IMG/VR virus record: IMGVR_UViG_3300047551_001073
Span: 1 to 20,399 of that record
Length of the DNA: 20,399 bases
DNA from: a virus
Strand: one strand, 5' to 3'
Position numbers and translations under genes: made by a program. Of the stretch, positions 3,021 to 17,470 are shown in pieces (position 1 is the stretch's first letter; every line of letters begins with the position of its first letter). Under the pieces are notes generated by a model. That model ran no database searches. It was not told where the DNA came from and saw only the letters and a program-made list of their open reading frames with translations.

Positions 3021-4034
3021 TTATACCTTCTTCCAGTAAGTATATTTCATTTTTGCTTTAAGTCCAGAATAAATGTTATTGATTATAATCTTGTGTGTCA
3101 TTCCTTTTCCATAAGATAAAACCATATCATTTATATCTTTCTCAATTATTTCAGACGGCCAGATTACTACGTTTCTTCCAGCCTCTATGTATTTTCCAAT
3201 CAATCCGACTATTTCTGCATTTCTAGGTTCATTATCAAAAACAAATACAACATTTGACTTGTTTATTTTGGTAGGCAATTCACTTAGCCACCCAGCACCC
3301 TGCATAGCAACTGCATTATCCAAGAACATAGAATCAATCGGACCCTCAGTTACAAATACAGTTTCTCTGGGGTCTACTTTATCTAGGTTGTACCAGAGCC
3401 TTTCCGTTTCTTCTTTTTTGAGAGTAATGTAGCGAATCCCTTTAGCTTCTTTCCCACCTTTTTTATCGAATCCCGCTTCTTCAAGTATTCGTCCTTGCAC
3501 GCCAATAAGTACGCCCATCTCGTCATAGAACGGTATGACGAGTCTGGCTTCCTTAGATCCAACTCTTTCAAAAGATTCCATGATCTTACTGAAATCGTTG
3601 CTGTAATAAAAATTACAATACTTTTCTTTAGGTATTTCTCTGGACTTAACATATTTTACTGCCTTATGATCTTCGTTGAGTAGGTCAAGCCTGGTTCCAA
3701 GATCAGTGAAAGGTTTATGTCTTTCTTTTTTTGGTTCTTCAACAATTGGCTCTGGGTTTCTGTCCTTGAAAACTTCGAAGGAATATTCCTTGCAGAGTTG
3801 TGGGCTAATACTTTCAAGAGCAGAATATAGATTACAAGAAAAACCGCAGTTGTGACATTTGTAAACATAATGGTTTTTGTGTTGAAAGAAGTATCCCCTG
3901 GTCTTATTCCTGTTCTTTTTGGAATCACCACACTTAAAACACCTACATGTGGCCAATGAATCTTTTTTCCACTTGAACTTTGCAAGGGAACCGGAAAGAA
4001 GATTCACATACTTCTTGTCAATATATATGCTCAT
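3021..4034 (-). CDS. 61: DNA primase, T4 gp61-like
   Basis: It synthesises RNA primers for lagging-strand synthesis as part of the primosome with the gp41 helicase. The 337-aa length is close to T4 gp61 (342 aa). An N-terminal zinc-binding domain shows C32-x2-C35 and C60-x2-C63, with the YxCHNCGF pattern of DnaG-type primases. A TOPRIM catalytic domain follows: E230 in VTEGPIDSMF, and D267/E269 in VFVFDNE in place of the usual DxD. The segment LVIPFYDEMGVLIGVQGR (165-182) is the typical primase RNA-polymerase strand region. Its ATG overlaps the helicase stop as TGATG at 4036-4032, so the two subunits are translationally coupled. Confidence 0.93.
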   Translation of the reverse strand: MSIYIDKKYVNLLSGSLAKFKWKKDSLATCRCFKCGDSKKNRNKTRGYFFQHKNHYVYKCHNCGFSCNLYSALESISPQLCKEYSFEVFKDRNPEPIVEEPKKERHKPFTDLGTRLDLLNEDHKAVKYVKSREIPKEKYCNFYYSNDFSKIMESFERVGSKEARLVIPFYDEMGVLIGVQGRILEEAGFDKKGGKEAKGIRYITLKKEETERLWYNLDKVDPRETVFVTEGPIDSMFLDNAVAMQGAGWLSELPTKINKSNVVFVFDNEPRNAEIVGLIGKYIEAGRNVVIWPSEIIEKDINDMVLSYGKGMTHKIIINNIYSGLKAKMKYTYWKKV

Positions 4035-5446
4035 CAGGCTTCCTCAAATGTCCAGTTCACAACTTTGTTCTTCTTCTTTCCAAATTTTGGATTAAATGTT
4101 TGTGAATCCGAACCCGAACCAAAGCCTTCTTCTTCTGTGTTATTTGCATTAGTAAGGTTGTTGTTGGTATTGTCAACATCATAAAATTTCATCTTAGACT
4201 TATTGACACCAACCAAAAACTTCCTGTTCTTTGTCAAATCATTTCCACGATTCTTTAGTTGCTTGACCATTAGCTGACCAGCTTCTGCAAGTTCTTCATT
4301 TTCAATCAATGCAACAAAGAAGTCTGCTGTCTGTGGAAGACCAAAGCTTTCAGATGTATCGGTCATCTCCATGTCACTACTCTTTGCGCCTTCACGGTTG
4401 ACCTGGGTTGCTGTCCATACGGGGACATTGAACTGCTTGGCAAGTCCTCGCAATTCTTCAGCAATACCTTTAACATAAGTATAGCTATTCATTCCATTGC
4501 CCATCTTGAATCTAGCACATGAGCAAATATTCAAATAATCTACAAAAATTACATCTGGAATAAACTTCTTCTTAATCTTTAACTCTTCCATCAGATTACG
4601 AAAGTGTGTAACATTTGCTGCTGCGGTGGGGTATTCTTTTATGATAAGCTTTCCTCTGCAGGTTTTCTTTAAATTGTCAACTTTATTTTCATATTGCTGC
4701 AACGGCATCTGCTCTAGAACATGCATGTCGGTATCAAGAAGATTTGCATCAATTCTTTTTGCAATCTCTTCCTCTGCCATCTCAAGAGTAATGTAAAGTA
4801 CATTCAAGTTTTGAGACATGCATGCTGCTGCATGATGGCAAAGAAAAGCACTCTTACCGACACCAGATGCTGCCATGACAACATTGAGAGTCTTTTTACG
4901 GGTTCCGCCACGGGTAATCTTATTAAACATCTCTAGATCAAAAGGAACCTTTTCCTCTACTCTATGGTAATATTCATATCGCTCGTCAACATCTTCAAGG
5001 AAATCGTGACCTACGCGAGTATCGAAAGACACAGACAACGCCTTGGACATAATCTCGGGAATTGCATTCTGCGTCTGCTCTTTGTCTTTTCCTTCAATAA
5101 TACCAATAGAAGCCATGATACCATTGTAGATTGCTTTTTCTTTACAGAATTTTTCTGTATTCTCTACAAGCCATATTGTGTCTGACTTCTCACCTTCCTT
5201 GTACATTTCCTCGCTGATGGAAACACACTTTTTGAATTCAACCTCTCCCAACGACTTTTCATTTTCCAATGAAATGAGAATAGCATCCTTTGTCGGGATG
5301 TTATTGTACTTCAAGATAAACTTCGATACTATTCCAAATACTGCCCTTTCGGATTTATCGTGGAAGTATTCTTCTTGAAGGAAGGGAACAACTTTTCTTG
5401 CGTACTCTTCATTGAGTACCAAGTTCTTTAAGATTACTGTTTCCAT
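4034..5446 (-). CDS. 41: Replicative DNA helicase, T4 gp41/DnaB family
   Basis: A hexameric 5'-3' helicase that unwinds the fork and recruits primase. The 470-aa protein is almost the length of T4 gp41 (475 aa). The N-terminal domain (about 1-150) is followed by a RecA-like motor domain. Walker A is AASGVGKS at 192-199, and Walker B is DVIFVDYLN with D303. The segment WTATQVNREG is the H3-type region of DnaB-family helicases. The C-terminal tail (about 420-470) is Asn- and charge-rich and probably disordered, ending in an acidic FEEA. No ribosome binding site lies near the ATG at 5446. Instead TATAAT ends 6 nt upstream, so a leaderless mRNA is likely. The stop overlaps the primase start. Confidence 0.95.
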   Translation of the reverse strand: METVILKNLVLNEEYARKVVPFLQEEYFHDKSERAVFGIVSKFILKYNNIPTKDAILISLENEKSLGEVEFKKCVSISEEMYKEGEKSDTIWLVENTEKFCKEKAIYNGIMASIGIIEGKDKEQTQNAIPEIMSKALSVSFDTRVGHDFLEDVDERYEYYHRVEEKVPFDLEMFNKITRGGTRKKTLNVVMAASGVGKSAFLCHHAAACMSQNLNVLYITLEMAEEEIAKRIDANLLDTDMHVLEQMPLQQYENKVDNLKKTCRGKLIIKEYPTAAANVTHFRNLMEELKIKKKFIPDVIFVDYLNICSCARFKMGNGMNSYTYVKGIAEELRGLAKQFNVPVWTATQVNREGAKSSDMEMTDTSESFGLPQTADFFVALIENEELAEAGQLMVKQLKNRGNDLTKNRKFLVGVNKSKMKFYDVDNTNNNLTNANNTEEEGFGSGSDSQTFNPKFGKKKNKVVNWTFEEA

Positions 5447-5452
5447 GTTTTT

Positions 5453-5480
5453 ATTATATGATGGTTACCTTAAAAGTCCA
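5453..5480 (-). promoter_or_regulatory. Sigma70-like promoter of the helicase gene, probably leaderless
   Basis: On the minus strand the -35 box TGGACT (5480-5475) is followed by a 16-nt spacer and a perfect -10 box TATAAT (5458-5453). Six nt later comes the helicase ATG, so the expected start of transcription is the A of the ATG. It lies in the short gap between the 104-aa gene and the helicase. Confidence 0.55.
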
Positions 5481-5483
5481 GCA

Positions 5484-5798
5484 TTAGTCCTGATGAACAT
5501 CATCCTCAAGATCTACAGATTCTTTCTTTTCTTCTTCGATATTTTTCTCAACAATATCAGTAAAGATTTGACCAACCACTTGAGTAAACTCTGCTGTTTC
5601 TTGGTTAAAGTTTTCTGGAGCTTGTAATGTAGTAACATTCATATTTACCGCAAGTTCTCCAGATTCAGTTTCATGTAATGAAATTTTACCGTATTTAAAT
5701 ACGATGCCAGAAAAATCACCATTTAAGATTTCAATTGGGCATGTATCTTTTTGATCAAAAAGATCATCTCTAAATTTATAATCAGGAACCTTGTCCAT
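5484..5798 (-). CDS. Small protein of unknown function between uvsX and helicase
   Basis: A 104-aa protein, acidic overall, with a beta-rich first half (about 20-60) and a highly acidic tail (IEEEKKESVDLEDDVHQD, last 18 residues). No family is recognised. The ATG at 5798 lies inside the end of uvsX (17-nt overlap), with AAAAGGAT about 7 nt upstream, so it is coupled to uvsX translation. The acidic tail resembles those of single-strand-DNA-binding or recombination-mediator proteins, but it lacks a visible OB-fold signature, so that is only a thought. Position between recombinase and helicase suggests a replication or recombination accessory role. Confidence 0.8.
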   Translation of the reverse strand: MDKVPDYKFRDDLFDQKDTCPIEILNGDFSGIVFKYGKISLHETESGELAVNMNVTTLQAPENFNQETAEFTQVVGQIFTDIVEKNIEEEKKESVDLEDDVHQD

Positions 5799-6804
5799 AT
5801 TTAAAATCCTTTTGAACTTCTGCGTCGATTTTATTTAGAATATCCAAAGTAAAGTATTTCTCTGGATCATCATCAATGTTTTTCTCAAAAACTTTAGAAC
5901 CATCTGGCAACTCTACGCGAGTGGAAACCTTCTTGAAGATATTATACTTTAAAGCAAGATCCGTCAAACCATAATATCTGCTCAGACCAGATGTATAGTT
6001 TAGACGAGTTTCAACTTGCATGTTTTCTTTAACAAAACGATTTTTATAGTTTGTGCATTTGATAAAATTTCCAACTACTCCGTCTTCTGTTTTATCCTTG
6101 CTCTTTGAAAGAGTAAGGATGTTACTGGCTGCATACTTGAGTCCAATGCCACCACCAAGTTCCTTTGTTGGAACATATGCACCAATAACTTGGTAAGTAT
6201 GATTGGTGAGAAGCATGGGAATCTTGGCCTTGCCAAGCTTCAAAGTAAGAACACGGAATGTTGCTTTGGTCTGCTGAGCCTTTGTCATGTCACGAACATC
6301 TTTACCTTCAGCGGAGTCAGTCATCTCCTTGCGGGTAGACAACATCCCAAGGGAGTCAAGAACCATAAAAACTGGCTTTCGGTCTTCTTCGGGCTGCTCA
6401 AGAATGTCATTAACAATCTTCAGTGCCTGTGTCTTGAACTCTTCGATTGTTGCAACGGGAATGACTGCTACACGCTCAGGATCAACTCCCCGTGCAGTAA
6501 ACATATCAGATGTTACTGCTTGCTCGGTATCAAAATAAATCACAACACCGTCTTTGTGATCCTTTAGAAACTGGCCTGCGATGCCAATGGCATAGAAGGT
6601 CTTTCCCGTTGCTGGATCTCCTGCCAAGCAGGAGATCTTGTTGTTTGGTAATCCCCCAAAGATAGATCCAGACAATAGTGCATTCAATGCATACGAACCC
6701 GTGTCAATGAAGCCAGATACATCTGCACCATCAATGCCTTCAGAAACTAGGGTTGCGTCTGGATTATCAATTTTGCTTATTAAGTTTTTTAGATACTTTG
6801 ACAT
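5782..6804 (-). CDS. uvsX: UvsX/RecA-type recombinase
   Basis: It forms filaments on single-stranded DNA and carries out strand exchange for recombination-dependent replication and repair. The 340-aa protein has Walker A GDPATGKT at 62-69, the catalytic glutamate E94 in YFDTEQ, and Walker B VFMVLDSLG with D150. LLTNHTYQVIG and the glycine-rich ELGGGIGLKYAASN match the L2-side region of phage UvsX proteins. The upstream leader is A-rich with AGAAAGA as a weak ribosome binding site. A perfect consensus sigma70 promoter (6855-6828) lies inside the end of the preceding gene. The gene overlaps that upstream gene by 38 nt and the downstream 104-aa gene by 17 nt. Confidence 0.95.
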   Translation of the reverse strand: MSKYLKNLISKIDNPDATLVSEGIDGADVSGFIDTGSYALNALLSGSIFGGLPNNKISCLAGDPATGKTFYAIGIAGQFLKDHKDGVVIYFDTEQAVTSDMFTARGVDPERVAVIPVATIEEFKTQALKIVNDILEQPEEDRKPVFMVLDSLGMLSTRKEMTDSAEGKDVRDMTKAQQTKATFRVLTLKLGKAKIPMLLTNHTYQVIGAYVPTKELGGGIGLKYAASNILTLSKSKDKTEDGVVGNFIKCTNYKNRFVKENMQVETRLNYTSGLSRYYGLTDLALKYNIFKKVSTRVELPDGSKVFEKNIDDDPEKYFTLDILNKIDAEVQKDFKYGQGS

Positions 6805-7069
6805 TATTTTTTTTCTTTCTGGTCGTAATTATAACAGCTGCGTAGTCACTGTCAACTACGCTGTCGTCAATTTTAAGAGAATCGATTATTACCTCATCAT
6901 CAACGTCAAGAAGTCTATCACCAACCATAAGGCATGGACCACCTTCAAAATCAAAAAGACCGTCGCCATGGCGAGTATACAAACTCCGACCTTCGATTTT
7001 GTAAGATCCGTCTTTAAGTAATGTGAGAATTCGTTCATCACCATATCTAGATTTAAACCTCTTTACCAT
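6767..7069 (-). CDS. Small protein of unknown function upstream of uvsX
   Basis: A 100-aa protein with a basic N-terminus, a short beta-rich middle (about 15-80) and a Lys-rich C-terminus (RKKKNNVKVSKKLNKQN). No family is recognised. The ATG at 7069 has AGGA about 10 nt upstream, inside the 3-nt gap and the end of the preceding gene. Its last 38 nt overlap the start of uvsX, and its 3' third contains the uvsX promoter, so this stretch codes for protein and carries regulation at once. The basic tail could bind nucleic acid (inference). Confidence 0.78.
   Translation of the reverse strand: MVKRFKSRYGDERILTLLKDGSYKIEGRSLYTRHGDGLFDFEGGPCLMVGDRLLDVDDEVIIDSLKIDDSVVDSDYAAVIITTRKKKNNVKVSKKLNKQN
6828..6855 (-). 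promoter_or_regulatory. Consensus sigma70 promoter for uvsX
   Basis: On the minus strand TTGACA (6855-6850), a 16-nt spacer and TATAAT (6833-6828) are both perfect hexamers. The predicted start of transcription is near 6821, giving a leader of about 17 nt before the uvsX ATG. The promoter is embedded in the coding sequence of the 100-aa gene upstream. Confidence 0.8.
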
Positions 7070-7072
7070 TTC

Positions 7073-7690
7073 TTAACATTCCTGGTTTATACCGTTGAGC
7101 ATTTTTATTTCTTCTTTGAGATCTTTTATCTCAATTTTAAGGTCTTCAATTATATTTTGAAGAGCAGAAATTTGTTTTTCTTGATCAATTTCTCTGAGAG
7201 TTTTTTCACGAGAATTAAATTTATTCAACCATTCAACATCTTGGTCGTTCAATATCAATGGATTTGTTTTCTGTGATTTTTTATATGGAACTTTTGTTGT
7301 ATAATGATTATATGGTGTGGAGGGCGCATTTTGGTTGTAAGCTGTAGTTCCTGTTTTTGCAGCATCGGTCCAATAATTCATAGTTCCCATAACATCAATT
7401 ATTTTTTTTAGAAAAACGTCTTCCTGAAAAGAATTTCCATTAAACACCACACCCAAGTCTTCCAACAATTCTTTAGTAACAGTAACCGTTGGAAGATTTA
7501 TTGCACTGTTGCTCACAGTATCAATAACCTCTGCGCGTATATGGAACAGTTTACTAACTAAATCTTGTCTGAGAATTATATGTTGAAATTCATAAGATTC
7601 AGAATCTATGTTCTGGAGCTTATTTCCAGGTGAACCCTTCACCCATTCAAAATCAATATAACCTCTGTCGTAAGCAGTTTTTACTAGCAT
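7073..7690 (-). CDS. Unknown protein with C-terminal coiled coil, downstream of polymerase
   Basis: With the ATG at 7690 the protein has 205 aa (MLVKTAYDRGYIDFEW...). The N-terminal 100 residues look globular. A Pro/Thr/Asn-rich linker follows (about 115-140), and a long charged helix with heptad-like Leu/Ile spacing fills about 160-200 (ENLK-type repeats such as LKIEIKDLKEEIKML). No family is recognised. An in-frame GTG at 7708 would overlap the polymerase stop, but ATG is favoured because TATAAT ends exactly 6 nt before it, as for the helicase and dut genes. Read-through mRNA from the polymerase could use GAGG 12 nt upstream. The coiled coil suggests an oligomer or an adaptor. Confidence 0.8.
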   Translation of the reverse strand: MLVKTAYDRGYIDFEWVKGSPGNKLQNIDSESYEFQHIILRQDLVSKLFHIRAEVIDTVSNSAINLPTVTVTKELLEDLGVVFNGNSFQEDVFLKKIIDVMGTMNYWTDAAKTGTTAYNQNAPSTPYNHYTTKVPYKKSQKTNPLILNDQDVEWLNKFNSREKTLREIDQEKQISALQNIIEDLKIEIKDLKEEIKMLNGINQEC

Positions 7691-7696
7691 GTGTTT

Positions 7697-7724
7697 ATTA
7701 TACCTCACACAAAAAAGGATTCAA
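7697..7724 (-). promoter_or_regulatory. Sigma70-like promoter, probably leaderless, for the coiled-coil gene
   Basis: On the minus strand TTGAAT (7724-7719), a 16-nt spacer and TATAAT (7702-7697) are followed by 6 nt and the ATG at 7690. The predicted start of transcription is the A of the ATG. The promoter overlaps the last codons of the polymerase gene. Confidence 0.6.
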
Positions 7725-10206
7725 GAGTTAATTTATCAGTTATAGACCAACCGATTGCCTGCAATACATTATCTAGAGGTTCATCAAATGTTTTCTCAAA
7801 TTGTTTTTTCCTGTCTATGTATTTTTCAAGATTAAAACTTTCAGGTGGCTTACCAATAAAACCAATAACAGCATCTTTTCCACCCATTCCGTATGGATTT
7901 GGAACTTTTAAAAAGACAAATTTCATTTTGTCATTTTCTTTAATTGGTGGGATGTCTTTAGACAGATTTAGTTTTTCGATATGGGCATTATGCAACAGTG
8001 CAGCCTTTGTTGCAATCGGAGTTCCTGTTTTATAAATTTTAGCATTATCCTTGTACTTAGCAATACCCTTGACACCCCGGGGAGATGCGATATCTTCTAT
8101 AGGCAATTTCATAAATTCATCATAGAATTCATTCACATATTCTCGCAACTCCTCCGGGGTTTTGGTCAGGATAATCTTGATACAATCTTTTAGCTTGTTT
8201 CTCACAACAGTAGGTGTACTGCTTCTTGCCGTCTCAAGACCCATGATCTTGAGTTTGGGATCAGCAAACCGAACACCTTCAAGGTCTTGAACTAACAGTG
8301 CATATCTTTTCTTTGCAACAAAGATTCCAGCAGAAGCAATGGCCTCGCGCTTAAACACGATCTTATTTTCTTTGCAATTCAACCCAGCAGAAAGCAGATC
8401 CATCTCTTTCTTGAATTCTGGTTGTATTTTTGTTTCGCATACCTGACCAATAAATGCCGTGACATCATCGATCTTTGTTTTACTGGATATCTTTTGAACA
8501 ATAGCATCTAGATTCAAGTAAACCGAGTCAGTATCAACAGCAATGACATAATCTTTAGTGTCCTTTGTAAGACTTTGAATATAGTCATTCATTGCCTTTT
8601 CTGCTTTGCGAATGATTACTTGTCCTGTGACCGTGACTGCAGTGGCCAACTCAGGAGATGAATAAACAAAAGCGGGATTGCCAAGACAACCGTAAAGACT
8701 GTTGGCAAGAATCTTTTTAACAGATTGTTTAATCTTGAGGGCCGCAATTCTGGGTAGCAACTCTTTGTTCTTTGTGCTTTCATATTCCTTTTCCAATTCA
8801 ATCATCCGTGACTTTGCTTCTTTTCTTTGATTGAAAGTACGCTCAATCAAGATTGGAATGAAGCCTTGAAAACTTTGAGTAAACATAGAACCATTACATG
8901 CAAGGCAGGAATTTATAGATGCTGCCTCTTTAACCATATCGGGTATATCATTCCTTTTGCTTGAAATAAAATCATCAGCATTCAATGACGCATCTTTTTT
9001 GGTGCAAGTATCTGGGGAGATGTTCCATTGCATGATAATAGATGGATACAGACTGGTTGCATCGAAGCTTACTACATTCTTGTAGAAACCAGGTGTAACA
9101 TCTTTTACATAAGCACCGACAAACTGTTCATCTTTTGCATAACTGTGTTTTAGTGGTGGAACTACTTGCTTTTGTGCAAGATAATCACAGCAGATGGTTT
9201 CCCAAATGCGGGTAGCAAAAAATACCGTATCATAAGTTATCTTTGCTTCATAGGCAATAGATACGGCCAAATCAATTAGTTTTAGTTTACCGTCAAGTCG
9301 CTCAACCAGCACAGCGTCTTGGACGTTATATTCTGCAAACTTTTGAAAGTTCTTCTTGTAAAACTCACGGAGTGAGCCATACTCGCTATAATCCAATTTT
9401 TGAGCATCTAGTTCCACCTTTGCTATGTTCTGCAGAGCATAGCTTTCCTGACTAGTACCCGAAAACTTTTTGTACAAATCCATGTAATCTAAAATAGTGT
9501 ATCCGGGAAACTCATAAATTTTATGGTTTCTTCCACCAATATCTGTTTCCCGACACTTCATCAAATTAAAAGGCAACCAACTTTGTATTTCCTTCTCATC
9601 AAAGTAAAGCAAAGCCCTGCCAATTATATAGGGAATATCGAATAGCTTTACATTCCATCCAGTTATGATGTCTACATCTTCTTTTGCAAGTATCTCAAAG
9701 GTTTTCTTTAGAAGTTCCTTTTCGTTTCCAACCATATAAACTTTGCAGTCTGGCAAAGTAATTGGAGTAAATGTAATAACATGAGTAACACCAGAAATTC
9801 TGATGCTCATCAAGTTTACTCTTTCATTTGGTCGTTCAAGGTCCGGGAAACCGTCCTCGGACTCACACTCCAAGTCCAAATAAGCTATCTTGATTTTGGA
9901 AAGATCGTATTCCACCTCAGTCGGATAAGTCTCCATGAGGTATTGAGTAATGAAATCAGTGTTGCCATAAATTGGGCAATCCTCTAGTTCTCTATACTGA
10001 TCCAGGAATTCTCTGCAGTCATACAGAGTATCAAAAGTCATTTTTTTGACTTTAAACCCCTTGAGGGTTTTATACTTGCTATCTTTGTCTGTGCGGATAA
10101 AGAGAGAAGGTTTAAACGAAACTGACTCCGTAAACCTCTCTCCATTTTTGTATCCACGAACAAGTACTTTATTGCCCTTTAGGGCACATGCCGTATAGAA
10201 TTTCAT
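7705..10206 (-). CDS. 43: Family B DNA polymerase, T4 gp43-like
   Basis: The replicative polymerase with 3'-5' proofreading; 833 aa against 898 in T4. Exonuclease motifs are ExoI D111-L-E113, ExoII with D190 in NVKLFDIPYI and ExoIII with D297 in YNVQDA. Polymerase motif A is FDATSLYPS with D382, motif B is KKILANSLYG (about 497-506) and motif C is VDTDS with D558/D560. A KKRYAL segment lies further on. The last residues (LTLESFFV) resemble the C-terminal sliding-clamp peptide of T4-type polymerases. All catalytic residues are present and there is no intein or split. The ATG at 10206 overlaps the upstream stop as ATGA, so translation is coupled to the DUF1599-like gene. Confidence 0.97.
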   Translation of the reverse strand: MKFYTACALKGNKVLVRGYKNGERFTESVSFKPSLFIRTDKDSKYKTLKGFKVKKMTFDTLYDCREFLDQYRELEDCPIYGNTDFITQYLMETYPTEVEYDLSKIKIAYLDLECESEDGFPDLERPNERVNLMSIRISGVTHVITFTPITLPDCKVYMVGNEKELLKKTFEILAKEDVDIITGWNVKLFDIPYIIGRALLYFDEKEIQSWLPFNLMKCRETDIGGRNHKIYEFPGYTILDYMDLYKKFSGTSQESYALQNIAKVELDAQKLDYSEYGSLREFYKKNFQKFAEYNVQDAVLVERLDGKLKLIDLAVSIAYEAKITYDTVFFATRIWETICCDYLAQKQVVPPLKHSYAKDEQFVGAYVKDVTPGFYKNVVSFDATSLYPSIIMQWNISPDTCTKKDASLNADDFISSKRNDIPDMVKEAASINSCLACNGSMFTQSFQGFIPILIERTFNQRKEAKSRMIELEKEYESTKNKELLPRIAALKIKQSVKKILANSLYGCLGNPAFVYSSPELATAVTVTGQVIIRKAEKAMNDYIQSLTKDTKDYVIAVDTDSVYLNLDAIVQKISSKTKIDDVTAFIGQVCETKIQPEFKKEMDLLSAGLNCKENKIVFKREAIASAGIFVAKKRYALLVQDLEGVRFADPKLKIMGLETARSSTPTVVRNKLKDCIKIILTKTPEELREYVNEFYDEFMKLPIEDIASPRGVKGIAKYKDNAKIYKTGTPIATKAALLHNAHIEKLNLSKDIPPIKENDKMKFVFLKVPNPYGMGGKDAVIGFIGKPPESFNLEKYIDRKKQFEKTFDEPLDNVLQAIGWSITDKLTLESFFV

Positions 10207-10529
10207 CCAATATTCTTTTGCTCTTTGTCCTTCAGCAATCCAGCAAGCAGAACGCTATAGTTAATCATATCTATGATAGCATCATAGACGCTTTCATTAG
10301 TAATAGACAGATCGCCTTTATTGAGGAAAGTAGAAATTCTAGACATTTTATCTGTCATTCGAATTAATACCCCAAGTTCAGCCGTGGCAAAGCCAAGATA
10401 TTCAGCCCTGCGAAAGTTCATAAAAGGATCTGCCCCAGAAGCATAGTCGTTATTCTTCTTTTTCATAAGTTCTAAGGCTTCTTTGCAGATATCGTCGTGT
10501 AATTTAAATAGTTCTTCTCGTGTAGTCAT
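10203..10529 (-). CDS. DUF1599-like all-alpha protein (possible nucleotide-metabolism role)
   Basis: With the ATG at 10529 the protein has 108 aa. It matches the pattern of the DUF1599 family as I remember it: KKKNNDYA (23-30), DPFMNFRRAE, the helix ELGVLIRMTDKMSRI (51-65) and the acidic helix ESVYDAIIDMINYSVLL (79-95). This helical, Glu/Asp-rich layout resembles MazG-type nucleotide pyrophosphohydrolases, and the family is linked to nucleotide modification or pool control. The reaction is not known. The longer ORF to 10565 would need TTG and would run through the promoter, so ATG is preferred. It is the first gene of the minus-strand replication unit, and its stop overlaps the polymerase start (ATGA). 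Confidence 0.82.
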   Translation of the reverse strand: MTTREELFKLHDDICKEALELMKKKNNDYASGADPFMNFRRAEYLGFATAELGVLIRMTDKMSRISTFLNKGDLSITNESVYDAIIDMINYSVLLAGLLKDKEQKNIG

Positions 10530-10537
10530 GGTAGACC

Positions 10538-10565
10538 AATATACACCATTTATAGGACCCGTCAA
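10538..10565 (-). promoter_or_regulatory. Sigma70-like promoter of the DUF1599-like/polymerase unit
   Basis: On the minus strand TTGACG (10565-10560), a 16-nt spacer and TATATT (10543-10538) are followed by 8 nt and the ATG at 10529, so the leader would be about 2 nt. No ribosome binding site is visible. The -35 box directly abuts the palindrome at 10566-10580 that belongs to the divergent plus-strand side. Confidence 0.55.
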
Positions 10566-10580
10566 GTCTAAATATTAGAC
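10566..10580. repeat. 15-bp palindrome in the divergent intergenic region
   Basis: GTCTAA-ATA-TTAGAC is a perfect 6-bp inverted repeat around a 3-nt centre. It lies between two divergent genes, touches the -35 box of the minus-strand promoter and contains the plus-strand CTAAATA box. It could be an operator or simply a symmetrical promoter surround. Confidence 0.5.
10568..10574 (+). promoter_or_regulatory. Late promoter box CTAAATA for the plus-strand block
   Basis: CTAAATA lies 24 nt before the first ATG of the plus-strand block and is followed by a GGAG ribosome binding site at 10583-10586. CTAAATA is a late-promoter form reported for T4-like phages. It is the only obvious promoter for the four plus-strand genes downstream. 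Confidence 0.55.
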
Positions 10581-10598
10581 ACGGAGAATTTTTAAAAT

Positions 10599-11204
10599 AT
10601 GTTGGCAGTCATCCCAGATTTTTCTAAACTAATTGAGGTAATTTCCATAGCAGTTTTTGGAATTCTGGGAGTTGGGTGGGGATTGGTAAAATTTATTCAA
10701 TCTAGATCCAAATCTGATAATTTTATTGCAATACATACAGAAATCCATGAATTATTAACAGAACTCAGAGTTAATAGTAAGGCAATGCGTGTTAGTGTCT
10801 TGCAATTTCATAATGGTGAATATTTTATGGATGGAATTTCCATGAGAAAGTTTTCAATAACACATGAATCTTCTCATAAAGGCTACATTTCACAATCATT
10901 AAAATTTAAAAATGTTTTATGTTCTCTTTTTATTCCTTTATTGAATAAAATATTAGAAAATAAAGGAATTGTTCACCACGTCGATGCTATGTCGTCGTCC
11001 TATGCTAAACATTTCTTTGAAGATGAAAATATTTCTCACTATGCCTGTCTTCCAATAAGAAATAAAAATATAAACATTGGATTTATTTTATTACAATGGC
11101 ATTTTGATTTCCCACCGGATATGGAGAATCAACAGTCCATGGTTGATTACTTTGAAAGCATCCGTGATTCGGTAGAAATACAACTTTCATATCAAAAGAA
11201 CTGA
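10599..11204 (+). CDS. Membrane-anchored protein with a possible GAF-like soluble domain
   Basis: A 201-aa protein with one N-terminal membrane segment (about 12-33), a short basic stretch (KFIQSRSKS) and a soluble domain from about 42 to 197. The domain has a helix, then VSVLQFHNGEYFMDG (66-80), FSITHESSHKGY, and later YACLPIRNKNINIGFILLQWHF. This alternation of strands and helices resembles GAF/sensor folds, but it is only a visual match. With the basic stretch after the membrane segment the domain would face the cytoplasm. It is the first gene of a four-gene plus-strand block that continues with a holin-like and a lipoprotein gene. A GGAG lies 12 nt before the ATG. The function is unknown. 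Confidence 0.8.
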   Translation: MLAVIPDFSKLIEVISIAVFGILGVGWGLVKFIQSRSKSDNFIAIHTEIHELLTELRVNSKAMRVSVLQFHNGEYFMDGISMRKFSITHESSHKGYISQSLKFKNVLCSLFIPLLNKILENKGIVHHVDAMSSSYAKHFFEDENISHYACLPIRNKNINIGFILLQWHFDFPPDMENQQSMVDYFESIRDSVEIQLSYQKN

Positions 11205-11211
11205 GGTAAAC

Positions 11212-11646
11212 ATGAGCATAGAACTTTTATCTTTGATTGGTGGTGGATTTACTGGATTTCTTTTTAAATATTGGGCTCAAAGAGCACAAGACCAAAAAGA
11301 AATATTTGAACGCCTAATTAAAGCAAACCAACAAACAACAGATAATCAAGATAAAGCAGCCCAAAGAGTTCCACTTGATGTTGGCAAAAATGTAAGAAGA
11401 CTAATTGTTCTTACTTGCTTGTTTGCAGTAGTTGCTGCTCCCTTTGTACTTCCGTTTTTTGGAATTCCGACATTTGCCGAGTTTGATCAAAAACAACCTG
11501 AAAGTATTTTTGGAATGATTCCAGAAACAACTAGAAGATATTTTGTAGAAATTCCAGGTTATTTCTTGGCACAAGAAAATAGACAAGTTTTGTTGGCTGT
11601 TGTTGGATTTTATTTTGGTACATCTGTATCTGGAGATAAATCATGA
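11212..11646 (+). CDS. Holin-like membrane protein
   Basis: A 144-aa protein with three hydrophobic stretches: about 4-20 (glycine-rich), 63-84 (strong) and 125-140. A charged, probably helical region lies between the first two (QDQKEIFERL...). The last segment ends in VGFYFGTSVSG, a pattern familiar from three-segment phage holins. Holins make the inner-membrane lesion that times lysis; that role is inferred from topology and from the lipoprotein gene next door. The ribosome binding site GAGGT is 4 nt before the ATG. The gene begins 7 nt after the upstream stop and overlaps the next gene as ATGA. Other small membrane proteins could look the same. Confidence 0.8.
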   Translation: MSIELLSLIGGGFTGFLFKYWAQRAQDQKEIFERLIKANQQTTDNQDKAAQRVPLDVGKNVRRLIVLTCLFAVVAAPFVLPFFGIPTFAEFDQKQPESIFGMIPETTRRYFVEIPGYFLAQENRQVLLAVVGFYFGTSVSGDKS

Positions 11647-11885
11647 AATACTTAATTACTTTGTTTTTATTTTTATCTTCTTGCACAAGTCCAGAATTTG
11701 TCTATATGAAAGATAAAACTGGAAATCCAATACATACAACAACACCAAATCCATTTTTTAGCTCACCAAACCAAGCTTCTGAGTGGAGTTTTTGGTATGT
11801 AATAATACTAGCAATCGTAGCTTGGGCTGTTTGGAAAGAGTTTAAATCTGTAAAATGGCCAAAATCTAAAAAAGAAGATAAATAA
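11643..11885 (+). CDS. Lipoprotein with C-terminal membrane segment, candidate unimolecular spanin
   Basis: An 80-aa protein. Residues 1-13 form a lipoprotein signal, with the lipobox L11-S12-S13 before C14. Residues 15-49 are polar and periplasmic. A membrane helix spans about 50-64 (FWYVIILAIVAWAVW) and a basic tail (KEFKSVKWPKSKKEDK) should stay in the cytoplasm. A lipid anchor at one end and an inner-membrane helix at the other is the architecture of u-spanins such as T1 gp11, which fuse the two membranes in the last step of lysis. The periplasmic part is short for that job compared with T1 gp11 (131 aa). GGAG is 7 nt before the ATG, which overlaps the holin-like stop. An inner-membrane lipoprotein of other function is the alternative. 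Confidence 0.8.
   Translation: MKYLITLFLFLSSCTSPEFVYMKDKTGNPIHTTTPNPFFSSPNQASEWSFWYVIILAIVAWAVWKEFKSVKWPKSKKEDK
11877..11884 (+). promoter_or_regulatory. Possible late promoter box GATAAATA
   Basis: GATAAATA fits NATAAATA and lies 5 nt before the ATG at 11890, but it also encodes the last codons and stop of the spanin-like gene. If used, the transcript would begin at or near the ATG. AT-rich chance is a real alternative. Confidence 0.2.
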
Positions 11886-11889
11886 AAAC

Positions 11890-12357
11890 ATGGAAAAGTT
11901 ACAGCTTTCATTATCTTTATCATCCAAAGTTTCTGGATTACCAGATGAATTACCAACAAGCATAAATCCAACTTCTGGTTGGGGCAATCTTGAATCTGGA
12001 CTAGTTGATACTAGTTTTACATATTGGGCATCTTCTACAGGCGCACAAACAGCAGCATCTAATGGTCAAGATGTAATTATAACTTGTTCTTCACCTATTT
12101 CTGTAACTATAACAGTATCTTCAACGTCTGGAACACCTCTATCGGGTTTAAAATATATAAAAACAACTGGAGGAGTTGCAAGTAATATTATAAACTATAC
12201 TGGTGCAATTAGTATTTCTAGCGGAGATAGTTTAAAAATTGCAGCAACAACGCCTTCATTTGGACCAACTGATGGAACTGGAAATATTGTGGTTACAGAT
12301 ACAACAAGTAGCCAAATATTAGATTTAATTCCATATAGTTTTGTAATTGAAATTTAA
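11890..12357 (+). CDS. Beta-rich, Ser/Thr-rich protein of unknown function
   Basis: A 155-aa protein rich in Ser, Thr, Gly and Ile, with alternating patterns such as DVIITCSSPISVTITVSS and GAISISSGDSLKIAAT that suggest a beta sandwich. No signal peptide or membrane segment is visible. It resembles small virion decoration or fibre-tip proteins in composition, but no family is recognised. It is the last plus-strand gene, 4 nt after the lipoprotein gene, with only a weak ribosome binding site. Its TAA is directly followed by the complement of the dut stop, so the two genes meet with no gap. Confidence 0.75.
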   Translation: MEKLQLSLSLSSKVSGLPDELPTSINPTSGWGNLESGLVDTSFTYWASSTGAQTAASNGQDVIITCSSPISVTITVSSTSGTPLSGLKYIKTTGGVASNIINYTGAISISSGDSLKIAATTPSFGPTDGTGNIVVTDTTSSQILDLIPYSFVIEI

Positions 12358-12876
12358 TTACTTTCCAGTGCTTCCAAATCCACCAATTCTATCTGATTTT
12401 TGATTGGGCTGTTTAAAAATTTCTTGGAAGTAGCACTGTTCGTACTCAACCACTTCAGCCTGAGCCACCCTGTCCCTGTCGTAAATTTTGATGGCATCGG
12501 TGGTATTGGTGTTAAGGATGATAATTTTGGTCTCCAAGGTATAGTCTTCATCGACAATACCTTCGCAATTAGCCAGCGTTAAACCGTATTTAAGCGCCAT
12601 TCCCGACCGAGGGTGCAGACGGAGGGAATACTGCTCGGGCACGTTAAAAGTCAATCCAGTACGAATTAAAGCCCTTTCTCCGGGCATTAGAGCAATAAAG
12701 TTCTTTTCGTTTGCGGAATCATATTCTGGAAAAACTTCCGTAAAATTTTTGCCTTGATAAACTTTAATTTTTTCATTGCTTGGGATATATGCGCCCAAGT
12801 CAAAGCATGCTGCCATACGAGTTTGAAAATTTGGATCTACGACATCCGGTGAGTGTTTAAAGTATTGGAGGATCAT
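12358..12876 (-). CDS. dut: dUTP diphosphatase (dUTPase)
   Basis: It hydrolyses dUTP to dUMP, keeping uracil out of phage DNA and giving ThyX its substrate. The 172-aa protein shows all five trimeric dUTPase motifs: I ACFDLGAYI (24-32), II PRSG (89-92), III NCEGIVDEDY (103-112), IV RDRVAQAE (134-141) and V RIGGFGSTG (163-171). A small insertion at about 35-60 makes it slightly longer than the usual 150 aa. There is no ribosome binding site before the ATG at 12876. A TTGATT-N16-TATAAT promoter ends 6 nt upstream, so the mRNA is probably leaderless. The gene is apart from the other nucleotide genes, between the plus-strand block and the structural genes, with its own promoter. Confidence 0.95.
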   Translation of the reverse strand: MILQYFKHSPDVVDPNFQTRMAACFDLGAYIPSNEKIKVYQGKNFTEVFPEYDSANEKNFIALMPGERALIRTGLTFNVPEQYSLRLHPRSGMALKYGLTLANCEGIVDEDYTLETKIIILNTNTTDAIKIYDRDRVAQAEVVEYEQCYFQEIFKQPNQKSDRIGGFGSTGK

Positions 12877-12882
12877 GAGTAC

Positions 12883-12910
12883 ATTATACTACAAAAAATG
12901 TTAAAATCAA
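12883..12910 (-). promoter_or_regulatory. Sigma70-like promoter of dut, probably leaderless
   Basis: On the minus strand TTGATT (12910-12905), a 16-nt spacer and TATAAT (12888-12883) are followed by 6 nt and the dut ATG. The -35 box overlaps the stop of the 105-aa gene upstream. Confidence 0.65.
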
Positions 12911-13313: not shown

Positions 13314-14474
13314 TTAACATGTGGGACCAAATAAATATCCTTTAGCAGTTGCCGTGGTAATATTAGATGCTGCAAATCCAGTAATTCCTTGCGCGTCAAT
13401 AGTTACTGGGCCGTATCCAGGATCAGAAGTAATATTTCTAAGATCTGTATACATTGTATTCAGTGCAGATGTAGATAGACTGCATCCACTAATATTTAAA
13501 AAATTTCTAGCACCTATAGTTTTGTTTCCTATAATAAAACTTTCAGGAGTTCCTTTCACGCTTCCTTGCAGTCTAACTGAAGAAACTTTGTTTGTTATAT
13601 AATTACCACAATAATTGTGTAGTCCTATTGTCAGTTTGGTCAAATTGGGTAAAGTGTTTCCAGAAAAAGAAGTCAATGATTGTGGGTTTACTTCTACTGG
13701 ATTGTTTGTTTGTGTTGCGAGTGCTATTTGCCTTAAAGTTTGAATATTATCAACGGTAATACCTGTCAGTAAAGAGTCTTTTATGAATAATTCATATAAT
13801 TGTGATCCAGAAGGAAAAGAAATTCCAGTAAATCCACAACTTGATGCTCCCAGTCTTTTTAAGTTTGCACCTATTGTTAGGGATTTTAAAGCAAAATTAT
13901 GATTACAAAAAAATTGTTCTAGATTAGACAATCCAGAAACATCAATTGATGCAAAACAATTTCCAGAACATGCTATTGTTGAAATATTTTTGCAGGCATT
14001 TATATCCCCCAGACTAGTAAGTTTATTTCTATCACACTTTAAAACTTTTAATTGTTGGCATGTGGATGTGTCAATTTCTCTTGTACACATATTAAATTGA
14101 TTTTGATTGGCACCAAAATTAGTTTGTTGTTTTTTTCTTTTATCACATGCAAAAAATGTTATATTGCCTTTTAAATTTCCAGATGCATCACAAGGTTCTA
14201 CTATTACTTTTTTTAAATTATTATCAGTTGGTACTTTGTAAGCATTTCCTCTGATTGCTGTTCCATCTATTTTTTGAAGACCAAATCCAGTACAGTCTAC
14301 TACTTGTGTAGACCCATCCCACCAAGTAACTTTAAACAAACTTGTTGATGTTGCAACACCAACTCCAAAAGGTAAAGTGAGACCAGTAGTATTTGGATTT
14401 AAAATATTTGAAGGTAAATCTGTATATAATACTATTCTTTCTTGGGGTTTAACTCCAACAGTTGGTCTCATCAT
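13314..14474 (-). CDS. Leucine-rich-repeat protein, probably virion- or host-contact-associated
   Basis: With the ATG at 14474 the protein has 386 aa. An N-terminal beta-rich region (1-130) is followed by about five leucine-rich repeats at 138-245, stepping roughly 20-21 residues: LKVLKCDRNKLTSL, ISTIACSGNCFASI, LEQFFCNHNFALKSL, LKRLGASSCGFTGI, LYELFIKDSLLTGI. The recurrent Cys in the strand recalls internalin-J-like repeats with a cysteine ladder. The C-terminal part (about 260-386) looks like further, degenerate repeats. There is no signal peptide. The start at 14474 is chosen because AGGAG lies 10 nt ahead and ATG overlaps the upstream stop as ATGA. Coupling to the large fibre-like gene suggests a tail or adhesion role (inference). 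Confidence 0.85.
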   Translation of the reverse strand: MMRPTVGVKPQERIVLYTDLPSNILNPNTTGLTLPFGVGVATSTSLFKVTWWDGSTQVVDCTGFGLQKIDGTAIRGNAYKVPTDNNLKKVIVEPCDASGNLKGNITFFACDKRKKQQTNFGANQNQFNMCTREIDTSTCQQLKVLKCDRNKLTSLGDINACKNISTIACSGNCFASIDVSGLSNLEQFFCNHNFALKSLTIGANLKRLGASSCGFTGISFPSGSQLYELFIKDSLLTGITVDNIQTLRQIALATQTNNPVEVNPQSLTSFSGNTLPNLTKLTIGLHNYCGNYITNKVSSVRLQGSVKGTPESFIIGNKTIGARNFLNISGCSLSTSALNTMYTDLRNITSDPGYGPVTIDAQGITGFAASNITTATAKGYLFGPTC

Positions 14475-17470
14475 GCGGTTAGATCTCCTGATAGCAACCA
14501 AATATTTGTAGAAAGTTGTATTGCAGATGCTGTGCTGTATCGTGTTCTAAGGAATCTTCCCGGTGTAAAATTAAGTGTTACACCAGAAGCTCCAGTGAAT
14601 CCAACTTGTCCCACACCTAATTGTGCAAAGTAAAGCACCGTTCCTGTTGGGAATGCAACCGAAGAATTTAGAGGAATGGTCATTGTTATACCGGATGCAT
14701 TGTTTAGAGTTATCAGTTTGCTAACATCGCTCAATACTGCTGTATAAGCAGTTCCTGTCTGTGCATTTATTTGCTGATACCCGATCAATGCTCCAGTAGC
14801 AGTTACGTTTCCTGTAACGTTTATGCCAGAACTAAATGTTGCACCATTTACAAATGTTTGTGTGCCAGAGAATGTTCCTCCAGCAGCAGATATTCCTGAA
14901 GTAAATCTTGTTAGAGCACTAAATGTTCCACCCGGAGCACTTATACCGCTTGTGGCATTCAACAATCCATAAATTGTTGCGGCTGTTTGTGCTGTTGCTC
15001 CGATGACTGCAGTGTTGGATCCCAACCCAACTGCCTGTGTTCCTATTACAATTTCATTTGTCTGAGCGTTTGCTGATGCTCTGGACTGATATCCTATATA
15101 TATGCTACCAGTTGCGCCAAGAAGTAAAGTAGCAGCACTACCTCTATAATATCCAGCCTGACTGCCAATTGCTGTATTTTGACTTCTTCCTAAATTAATT
15201 CCACCTAAAGAACGGTAACCAATTCCAACATTATCGTTTCCAGTAGATATATTTCCTAGAGATCCAACTCCAATTGCAGAGTTATTTGAACCACTGGAAT
15301 TAGCGAATAAAGTCGAACTACCGACACCTACATTATATAATCCAGAACTATTTGAATTTAATGAAGCATAACCAAGAGCAATATTATCTGTACCATCTAT
15401 GTTGAGTTCTAAGGAACTGGCACCAATCGCTAAATTATAATTTCCTATAGTATTTGTTGTAAGTGTAAATGCGCCAAGAGCAACATTGTATAATTTATTT
15501 CCAGCTCCTAAGCCAACTCTCATTCCATTTACAGAAATATCGGTGGCAAATGTTGCTCCACCAGCCACCGTAATTCCAGATAGGAATCTTGCTTGAGAAC
15601 TGAAAGTACCACCAGCCGCAGAGATTCCAGCATTAAATCTTACAAGTGAACTGAATGTTGCACCAGCAGCGCTGATACCACCGGGGAAGTTTGTAAGAGT
15701 ATTAAAAGTGTTTGTATTTGTAAAAGTTTGAGCCGCTGAAAGTCCTGCAAGAACTGTTGTTGTTGGAGGTAATGTTACTGTATAGCCAAAGCCAGAAGGT
15801 GCTGAAAATTGTAAAATACCAGTAGAGGCTGAAACATCTTGAAAAGATGTTATTTGATTTGAAGCTGGTATTATTGTTATATAATTTCCAGTTACATCAC
15901 TGTCAACTACTTCTAAACTTGGATTAATTGATTGATTAACAGTAAAATTATTATTAACATTAGTCCTAGCAACATTCGTAATAGCACCAGTTCCACCATC
16001 AATGCTCAAAACACCAGTGTTGCTAAAGGACATCGTTTGACCAGAAACACTCAGACCGATTCCGCTGCTATTCGTGATTCCTATGGCACCAGTGAGACCG
16101 CGAACACTGTTAACACCAACAATTGCTCCAGTAGATCCATTGAAACTTGTAACAACAGGGAGATCACTAAAACTTTTATTAACCCAGTCTCCAGATGACG
16201 AATCGTAAATAAGCGCTTGATTATTCGCTACGCTTGTAATGGACACATCGCTCAAGTCATCAAGAGTTGCAATCGCAACACCACCACCACCAATATTTGC
16301 AGTGCTGCGAAACAATCCTGCTTGAACTATTTCGTAGTCCCCAGTTGAGCTAAAATTTGCAATTCCGCTTTTTACAATTAAGTATGCGCAAAAGATTGCA
16401 CTGTCCGCTGAGTCATCTGATTCAGAAAATTCTTCAAAAAATAATGCTGCCTTTGCTGTATCTATGCTATTATACGTAACTCTTCCATAATAAACTAGCA
16501 ATACTGTTGGTTCAGTGGGATAATAAAAAACACGTTGTATTGTGTATCTGCCACCTGCAACAGAATTTAAAGTTCCAGAACCATCATCATAATTTGTTGC
16601 ATCTACAGTAGAATTGATTACTGTAATCCAACTACCAGCTGTGGCCCCACGATATTGTCTGTATATTATTGGTGTTGGATTTGAATCGGTGTCATTGACA
16701 ACATTTGGGCTATTTGGATTTATTGGATAATTTCTTCCCAAATCATATGCCGAACCAGATGATCTTGATAACTGAAGTGTTCCCGGATACCCAGTAATTT
16801 CATGCCCAGACAATTTTAATGGACCAAAGGCTCTGACAAAGCCATCCATTTGATTTCCTTGGCCATATGCAACGTGTGGATATGTCTTTGCAAAAGAAAT
16901 ATAACTTTTTGTTGGGTGTATTAGAGCACCAATTGGTATCTGGGAATCATATTGGTTTACAGTAAATGGAGTATGATTTTGCAATATATTTCCCGAACTA
17001 TTCATTGAAATATATGTTATATCATATGTTGTCAACCCGCTTAATGTTAATCCACTTGCTCCACTCCAAGATACATAATTAACTGTTGGTGATGGATATG
17101 AATAAGTTGAACCGCCAGGAGTGACAATAATTCCGCTTCCTGCAGTGATGTCAAATGTGGCTGTATTTCCAGAATTTATAGAAAGCAGACCACCGTAAAG
17201 TAAACCAGTTTGCAAATTTTCTATAAATCTTTCGCCAGATACACCATCCAAAAGATCAGCATCAAGATCACTTCCAGAACCTTCAATAACATTTACAGAA
17301 AAACTTGCACCAGACAAAGATTCTTGGTATCCAACAGAAATTTGATTTCCAGCAGATATTCCTGGATGACTGTCCAATTTGTCCCATGCAACACCATTGT
17401 ATATCCAACGGTTAATTCCGTATGAATACGTTTGTCCTGTTGCTGGTCCTATTGGAAAATCAATTGGCAT
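14471..17470 (-). CDS. Large modular tail-fibre-like protein with YadA-head-like repeats
   Basis: A 999-aa protein. The N-terminus (MPIDFPIGPATGQTYSYG) is a common opening of phage fibre and structural proteins. A middle domain (about 130-400) is followed by SFNGSTGAIVGV and related repeats (about 440-500). Two runs of GISAAGGTFSS..RF modules lie at about 590-645 and 840-880. Between them, about 650-820, are repeats such as NIALGYASL, NVGVGSSTL and NTAIGSQAG, like the left-handed parallel beta-roll of trimeric adhesins (YadA head). A C-terminal tip domain follows (about 895-999). The whole suggests a trimeric fibre for host binding. The start ATG lies 6 nt after the upstream stop with GGTAA ahead, and the stop overlaps the leucine-rich-repeat gene. 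Confidence 0.88.
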   Translation of the reverse strand: MPIDFPIGPATGQTYSYGINRWIYNGVAWDKLDSHPGISAGNQISVGYQESLSGASFSVNVIEGSGSDLDADLLDGVSGERFIENLQTGLLYGGLLSINSGNTATFDITAGSGIIVTPGGSTYSYPSPTVNYVSWSGASGLTLSGLTTYDITYISMNSSGNILQNHTPFTVNQYDSQIPIGALIHPTKSYISFAKTYPHVAYGQGNQMDGFVRAFGPLKLSGHEITGYPGTLQLSRSSGSAYDLGRNYPINPNSPNVVNDTDSNPTPIIYRQYRGATAGSWITVINSTVDATNYDDGSGTLNSVAGGRYTIQRVFYYPTEPTVLLVYYGRVTYNSIDTAKAALFFEEFSESDDSADSAIFCAYLIVKSGIANFSSTGDYEIVQAGLFRSTANIGGGGVAIATLDDLSDVSITSVANNQALIYDSSSGDWVNKSFSDLPVVTSFNGSTGAIVGVNSVRGLTGAIGITNSSGIGLSVSGQTMSFSNTGVLSIDGGTGAITNVARTNVNNNFTVNQSINPSLEVVDSDVTGNYITIIPASNQITSFQDVSASTGILQFSAPSGFGYTVTLPPTTTVLAGLSAAQTFTNTNTFNTLTNFPGGISAAGATFSSLVRFNAGISAAGGTFSSQARFLSGITVAGGATFATDISVNGMRVGLGAGNKLYNVALGAFTLTTNTIGNYNLAIGASSLELNIDGTDNIALGYASLNSNSSGLYNVGVGSSTLFANSSGSNNSAIGVGSLGNISTGNDNVGIGYRSLGGINLGRSQNTAIGSQAGYYRGSAATLLLGATGSIYIGYQSRASANAQTNEIVIGTQAVGLGSNTAVIGATAQTAATIYGLLNATSGISAPGGTFSALTRFTSGISAAGGTFSGTQTFVNGATFSSGINVTGNVTATGALIGYQQINAQTGTAYTAVLSDVSKLITLNNASGITMTIPLNSSVAFPTGTVLYFAQLGVGQVGFTGASGVTLNFTPGRFLRTRYSTASAIQLSTNIWLLSGDLTA

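Follow-up and report, generated by a model that had tools for sequence, protein, structure and literature searches.

Why should three genes in the replication block of a T4-like phage each begin exactly six nucleotides after a TATAAT box, at a distance that would place the start of transcription on the start codon itself? We addressed this question in a virus record of 20.4 kb, the whole of which (20,399 nucleotides) is the window analyzed here. The contig carries on its - strand a T4-like replication block with NrdJ, ThyX, primase, a gp41-type helicase, UvsX, a gp43-type polymerase and dUTPase. The markers of T4-like myoviruses are present, namely gp41, gp43, gp61 and UvsX in the contig and T4-type head genes in its relatives. 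No close DNA match to the contig was found among phage records; its polymerase shares approximately 42% identity with cyanophage polymerases, and its helicase approximately 55% with the helicases of cyanophages, of the pelagiphage HTVC008M and of the methylophage Melnitz. Relatives are numerous in IMG/VR, and a host search through the helicase in genome contigs found no relatives there. The lineage is a group of uncultivated T4-like water phages whose early and late promoters both stand at a spacing that predicts leaderless messages. With no mapped 5' end and no cultured host, we still regard it as highly probable that promoters of the sigma-70 and gp55 classes are fused to start codons and give rise to leaderless mRNAs throughout the lineage.

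A sequence-only reading of the contig had placed TATAAT-N6-ATG at three gene starts and considered this coincidence hard to explain by chance, and both points held. The three sites are all present at the given positions on the - strand, in front of the helicase (TATAATAAAAACATG, 5458-5444), of a coiled-coil gene that follows the polymerase gene (TATAATAAACACATG, 7702-7688) and of dut (TATAATGTACTCATG, 12888-12874). The contig has four matches to the motif, compared with a mean of 0.34 and a maximum of 3 in 100 dinucleotide shuffles; three of the four lie at gene starts and the fourth (7300-7314, + strand) does not. All three gene starts also have a -35-like hexamer. Since the contig-wide count of promoter-like sites is not above chance (59, compared with 57.8 in shuffled sequence), the evidence is given by position and conservation, and not by matches to the consensus. 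The elements of the three starts are:

5475-5480, - strand: helicase -35 box, TGGACT, 16 bp from the -10 box; TgGAC is kept in dereplicated orthologues
5453-5458, - strand: helicase -10 box, TATAAT, N6 before the ATG of the gp41-like helicase; conserved in orthologues
4034-5446, - strand: gp41/DnaB-like helicase (phrog_19, 6e-117), start at 5446 predicted leaderless; orthologues align from residue 1
7719-7724, - strand: -35-like TTGAAT of the coiled-coil gene, inside the 3' end of pol, 16 bp from the -10 box
7697-7702, - strand: -10 box of the coiled-coil gene, TATAAT, N6 before the ATG at 7690; recurs after pol in relatives
7073-7690, - strand: coiled-coil protein, function unknown, with a start predicted to be leaderless; GTG at 7708 as an alternative
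12905-12910, - strand: dut -35 box, TTGATT, 16 bp from the -10 box; orthologue consensus TTGAC
12883-12888, - strand: dut -10 box, TATAAT, N6 before the dut ATG; conserved in orthologues
12358-12876, - strand: dUTPase (phrog_135, 1e-37), start at 12876 predicted leaderless

We aligned orthologues at their start regions, with the ATG as anchor, after removal of sequences at least 80% identical, and scored the -10 box at 5/6 or better (the count of -10/-35 pairs for dut used a looser -10 threshold). Exactly 6 nt separate the -10 box from the ATG in 24 of 27 helicase orthologues, with the -10/-35 pair there in 22, and in 26 of 32 dut orthologues, 28 of the 32 having the pair. The spacer is 16 bp in 21 of the 22 helicase and 27 of the 28 dut pairs, within the 16-18 bp of sigma-70-type promoters. 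Neighboring genes have essentially no -10 box at N6. They also differ in their Shine-Dalgarno sites, which the three genes had been said to lack. For the helicase and dut this was borne out, as the Shine-Dalgarno core occurs in 1 of 27 and 0 of 32 orthologues, respectively, compared with 16/18 for g7069, 14/15 for nrdJ, 11/15 for thyX and 13/24 for uvsX.

A misplaced helicase start could be rejected, since no dereplicated orthologue has an upstream in-frame start. A misplaced dut start is unlikely: an in-frame alternative exists in 3 of 32 orthologues, and orthologues align from residue 1. The start of the coiled-coil gene is still ambiguous. This is the weakest of the three cases, because an in-frame GTG (7708) that overlaps the pol stop may be the start, and because the -35 hexamer falls in conserved pol codons (LESFF), which constrain it. 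The same arrangement of boxes also follows pol in relatives where the next gene has no recognizable homology to the coiled-coil gene.

Further promoter candidates of the contig, and one associated gene, are:

10538-10565, - strand: g10529 promoter, TTGACG-N16-TATATT, N8 before the ATG at 10529; leader predicted at approximately 2 nt
10203-10529, - strand: small conserved gene before pol (g10529; phrog_1485, weak DUF1599), predicted near-leaderless
11877-11884, + strand: T4-late-type box GATAAATA, N5 before the ATG at 11890; the only late candidate in the contig
6828-6855, - strand: contrast promoter, perfect TTGACA-N16-TATAAT, 23 nt before the uvsX ATG (6804)

In the dereplicated orthologues of g10529, the distance d between promoter and ATG is 8 nt in 9 of 17 and 6-7 nt in 6 of 17. 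With N8 in the contig and mostly N6-N8 in relatives, the predicted leader of this gene is therefore 0-2 nt. The late-type box is weak when taken alone because it overlaps the stop codon of the gene before it, and its class is supported in the clade (see below). The uvsX promoter lies within the preceding gene of the same operon and, if used, would produce a leadered message.

Because the window is the whole contig, the genome-wide scan that the sequence-only reading had set as its own test was run on seven large relatives (717 kb), by measuring how far each promoter lies from the ATG that opens a reading frame. The ATG is found at d=6 in 97 of the 313 sigma-70 promoter-like sites, while any other distance accounts for at most 10. 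The combination -35/-10-N6-ATG occurs 96 times, and dinucleotide shuffles of the same DNA return a mean of 0.75 and a maximum of 2, so that the excess is confirmed. A strict version of the pattern has 51 matches in the clade, none in a reversed-pattern control and 4 in seven isolates. Expansion of a single duplicated promoter family was rejected, as the 107 sigma-70 sites form 67 clusters at ≤60% identity outside the boxes; they carry 99 distinct N-termini. Matches listed by exact-pattern scans of viral contigs at N6 and at N12, whose totals do not bear comparison, served as background alone. Among the matches listed, other environmental viral contigs show a bimodal promoter-ATG distance, a minor peak falling at 6 nt and the main one at approximately 30 nt. 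This smaller peak suggests that the arrangement has been under-noticed.

A second class of promoters emerged from an unbiased hexamer count in front of 574 predicted gene starts of the relatives. TAAATA at -11 was observed 45 times compared with 2.9, and this late-box signal was, unexpectedly, stronger than the sigma-70 one. In the seven relatives, the ATG follows NATAAATA after exactly 5 nt at 50 of 296 sites, and the late box-N5-ATG arrangement is found 53 times compared with 6.9 in shuffled sequence (maximum 10). As the T4 late box TATAAATA spans -13 to -6 from the transcription start (PMC1524935), N5 would put +1 on the A of the ATG, and sigma-70 N6 would do likewise. Relatives also encode the late-promoter machinery, with gp55 (phrog_234, 8e-52), gp33 (PF16805, 1e-17) and gp45. 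They hence combine a TATAAATA-type box with all three proteins; the contig has only its one weak candidate. The original proposal, that early or middle genes form a leaderless class, is thus supported as to the missing leader, which is still a prediction, and too narrow as to the genes, since late T4-type promoters are fused to the ATG as well.

Sites of both classes were then characterized by their start codons and immediate surroundings. ATG, GTG and TTG are used 90, 2 and 2 times at sigma-70 N6 sites, and 50, 1 and 1 times at late N5 sites. Leaderless translation in E. coli prefers AUG, which the sigma-70 sites satisfy, and is enhanced by CA repeats after the start codon (PMC9031893). A pyrimidine occupies -1 in 95% of sigma-70 and 94% of late sites compared with 54% of other genes, an excess expected at a transcription start because of the usual -1/+1 preference. 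In the positional profile, the Shine-Dalgarno peak seen at other genes is missing at the usual spacing in both promoter classes.

These features bear on the possibility that the boxes are real promoters, but that transcription starts several nucleotides upstream or that transcripts come mainly from farther promoters, in which case the boxes only boost expression and read-through messages are translated. The close packing of genes on a single strand makes upstream read-through likely; moreover, a perfect leadered promoter precedes uvsX and g10529 is mostly at d=8. However, such messages would have no Shine-Dalgarno site at the genes in question, and neither the single-nucleotide spacing nor the pyrimidine at -1 is required by this explanation, which we consider unlikely. 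Under the preferred reading of promoters fused to start codons, real leaders might still measure 0-3 nt, as the choice of start site can vary.

Five contigs of relatives contain a GC-rich island (approximately 46-59% GC, compared with 30-45% elsewhere) with strings of small genes (L163:1000-11300; L145:4300-11400; L136:6200-11800; L134; L160:2700-11600). In these otherwise AT-rich T4-like contigs, the islands hold small orphan genes, many of which have ATG-ARC-ACC-ACC-like starts, mixed with tRNAs. They are likely early host-takeover cassettes; their early timing is inferred from the sigma-70 promoters and small orphan genes, late boxes lying elsewhere. Many island genes bear their own TTGACA-N17-TACAAT-N6-ATG, and cassette genes often begin with ATG-AGC/AAC-ACC-ACC. 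CA/AC density in codons 2-6 of the early-cassette genes is 0.37, compared with 0.13 in the interior of these genes (74 of 76, P-value = 7e-14). A general CA bias of gene starts was rejected by GC-rich non-leaderless genes, where the difference is not significant (0.154 and 0.134, respectively). The enrichment is absent from AT-rich core genes with such promoters, including those of the contig's type. Early-cassette genes at L163:9341-13356 and L145:9824-11089 encode an AAA_5 ATPase, which matches phrog_249 ('porphyrin biosynthesis'), and a large protein with a match to phrog_459 ('peptidase'); together they resemble the CobS/CobT-like pair of cyanophages.

The composition of the cassettes also matters for the idea that TATAAT or ATAAATA near the ATG acts as an A/T-rich translation enhancer or an unstructured leader and not as a promoter. 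The T-rich late N5 and the A-rich helicase N6 would fit it. However, the early cassettes have a high GC content beyond their boxes, the sigma-70 class conserves its -35 boxes at 16-17 bp, and among control AT hexamers a spacing spike appears only for those overlapping these boxes; we judge this idea very improbable. Chance in an AT-rich genome, for which the contig-wide promoter-like count speaks, is contradicted by the excess over shuffles in contig and relatives, the single spacing spike and the orthologue conservation, and can practically be discounted.

Fusion of promoters to start codons is not a general T4-like trait, which was rejected by T4, S-PM2, DSL-LC02, Cr30 and phiM12. T4 and the clade share the late system, with the box NATAAATA and homologues of gp55, gp33 and gp45. 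Nevertheless, none of the 66 late boxes of T4 is at N5 and their ATGs are mostly 17-28 nt away, whereas the clade has a spike of N5-ATG; the upstream placement that leaves a leader, as in T4, was not met in the clade. S-PM2 and DSL-LC02 have one N5 case each and most ATGs again at 17-28 nt, and late N5 is absent from Cr30 and phiM12. A -35/-10 scan of five isolates returned no sigma-70 box at N6. The Pelagibacter phage HTVC008M resembles the clade in having the late box N5 before the ATG at 9 of 45 sites, but the -35/-10 scan revealed no sigma-70 N6 class in it; in Melnitz, 3 of 42 late boxes are at N5. At least one marine relative therefore shares the late half of the arrangement, and HTVC008M is a cultured phage with predicted leaderless late genes. 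As far as sequence can tell, the spacing breaks with the gene starts of T4 and most sequenced T4-like phages.

We propose that host RNA polymerase with its housekeeping sigma factor would read the -35/-10 boxes, the latter ending 6 nt before the ATG, and would start at the A of the ATG to produce an mRNA without leader. Both the exact +1 and the absence of a leader are inferred from the observed spacing. Later, again by inference as to timing, the polymerase, now carrying gp55 of the phage together with gp33 and gp45, would use NATAAATA boxes 5 nt before the ATG, with the same outcome. Initiation is inferred to involve 70S ribosomes, which would bind the 5'-terminal AUG, while the CA-rich stretch right after it may aid translation in the GC-rich early cassettes and operon-internal genes would retain their Shine-Dalgarno sites. 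We found no phage-encoded IF3 or bS21 as a helper in the phage contigs, which are incomplete, and thus no sign of a phage reprogramming initiation. With more reserve, we lean towards a broader scenario, in which a T4-like lineage fused both host sigma-70 and phage gp55 promoters to start codons and equipped its early host-takeover cassettes with a CA-rich downstream element. Most promoter-proximal genes would then be leaderless throughout infection, and might in this way evade a control that host or phage exerts on Shine-Dalgarno initiation.

The Thermus phage phiYS40 has leaderless middle and late mRNAs, and in its host IF2 rises while IF3 falls (PMC3594737). Like the clade, it uses leaderless mRNA phage-wide over whole expression classes. 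It differs in its thermophile host, in the genes concerned (sigma-70 early and replication genes and gp55-type late genes in the clade) and in the IF2/IF3 shift, no such factor being found in the phage contigs of the clade. The cI mRNA of lambda is also leaderless, with its AUG at +1, and begins with AUGAGCACA. This start resembles the ATG-AGC-ACC starts of the early cassettes, but concerns one gene and one promoter, whereas the clade has a genome-wide class. Leaderless phage mRNA is thus already known; no description of its predicted use as a class in T4-like phages was found in the literature searched, which gave partial coverage. In E. coli and other well-studied model bacteria, leaderless translation is uncommon. 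If the prediction is true, a lytic lineage with leaderless replication, takeover and late genes would offer a natural system in which to study how 70S ribosomes select an AUG at the 5' end, and would point to hosts where the leaderless route is efficient. Gene-start calling would also improve, because programs that learn from Shine-Dalgarno sites can put these starts in the wrong place.

Two further observations were made in these genomes. Six relatives (L133, L137, L146, L150, L159 and L164) have tmRNA genes, with tags such as ANIKAAPMRMAA. In the contig, a gene at 13314-14501 on the - strand, with a TTG start within the end of a long tail-fibre-like gene, encodes a leucine-rich-repeat-like protein that matches LRR_4 slightly below the cut-off.
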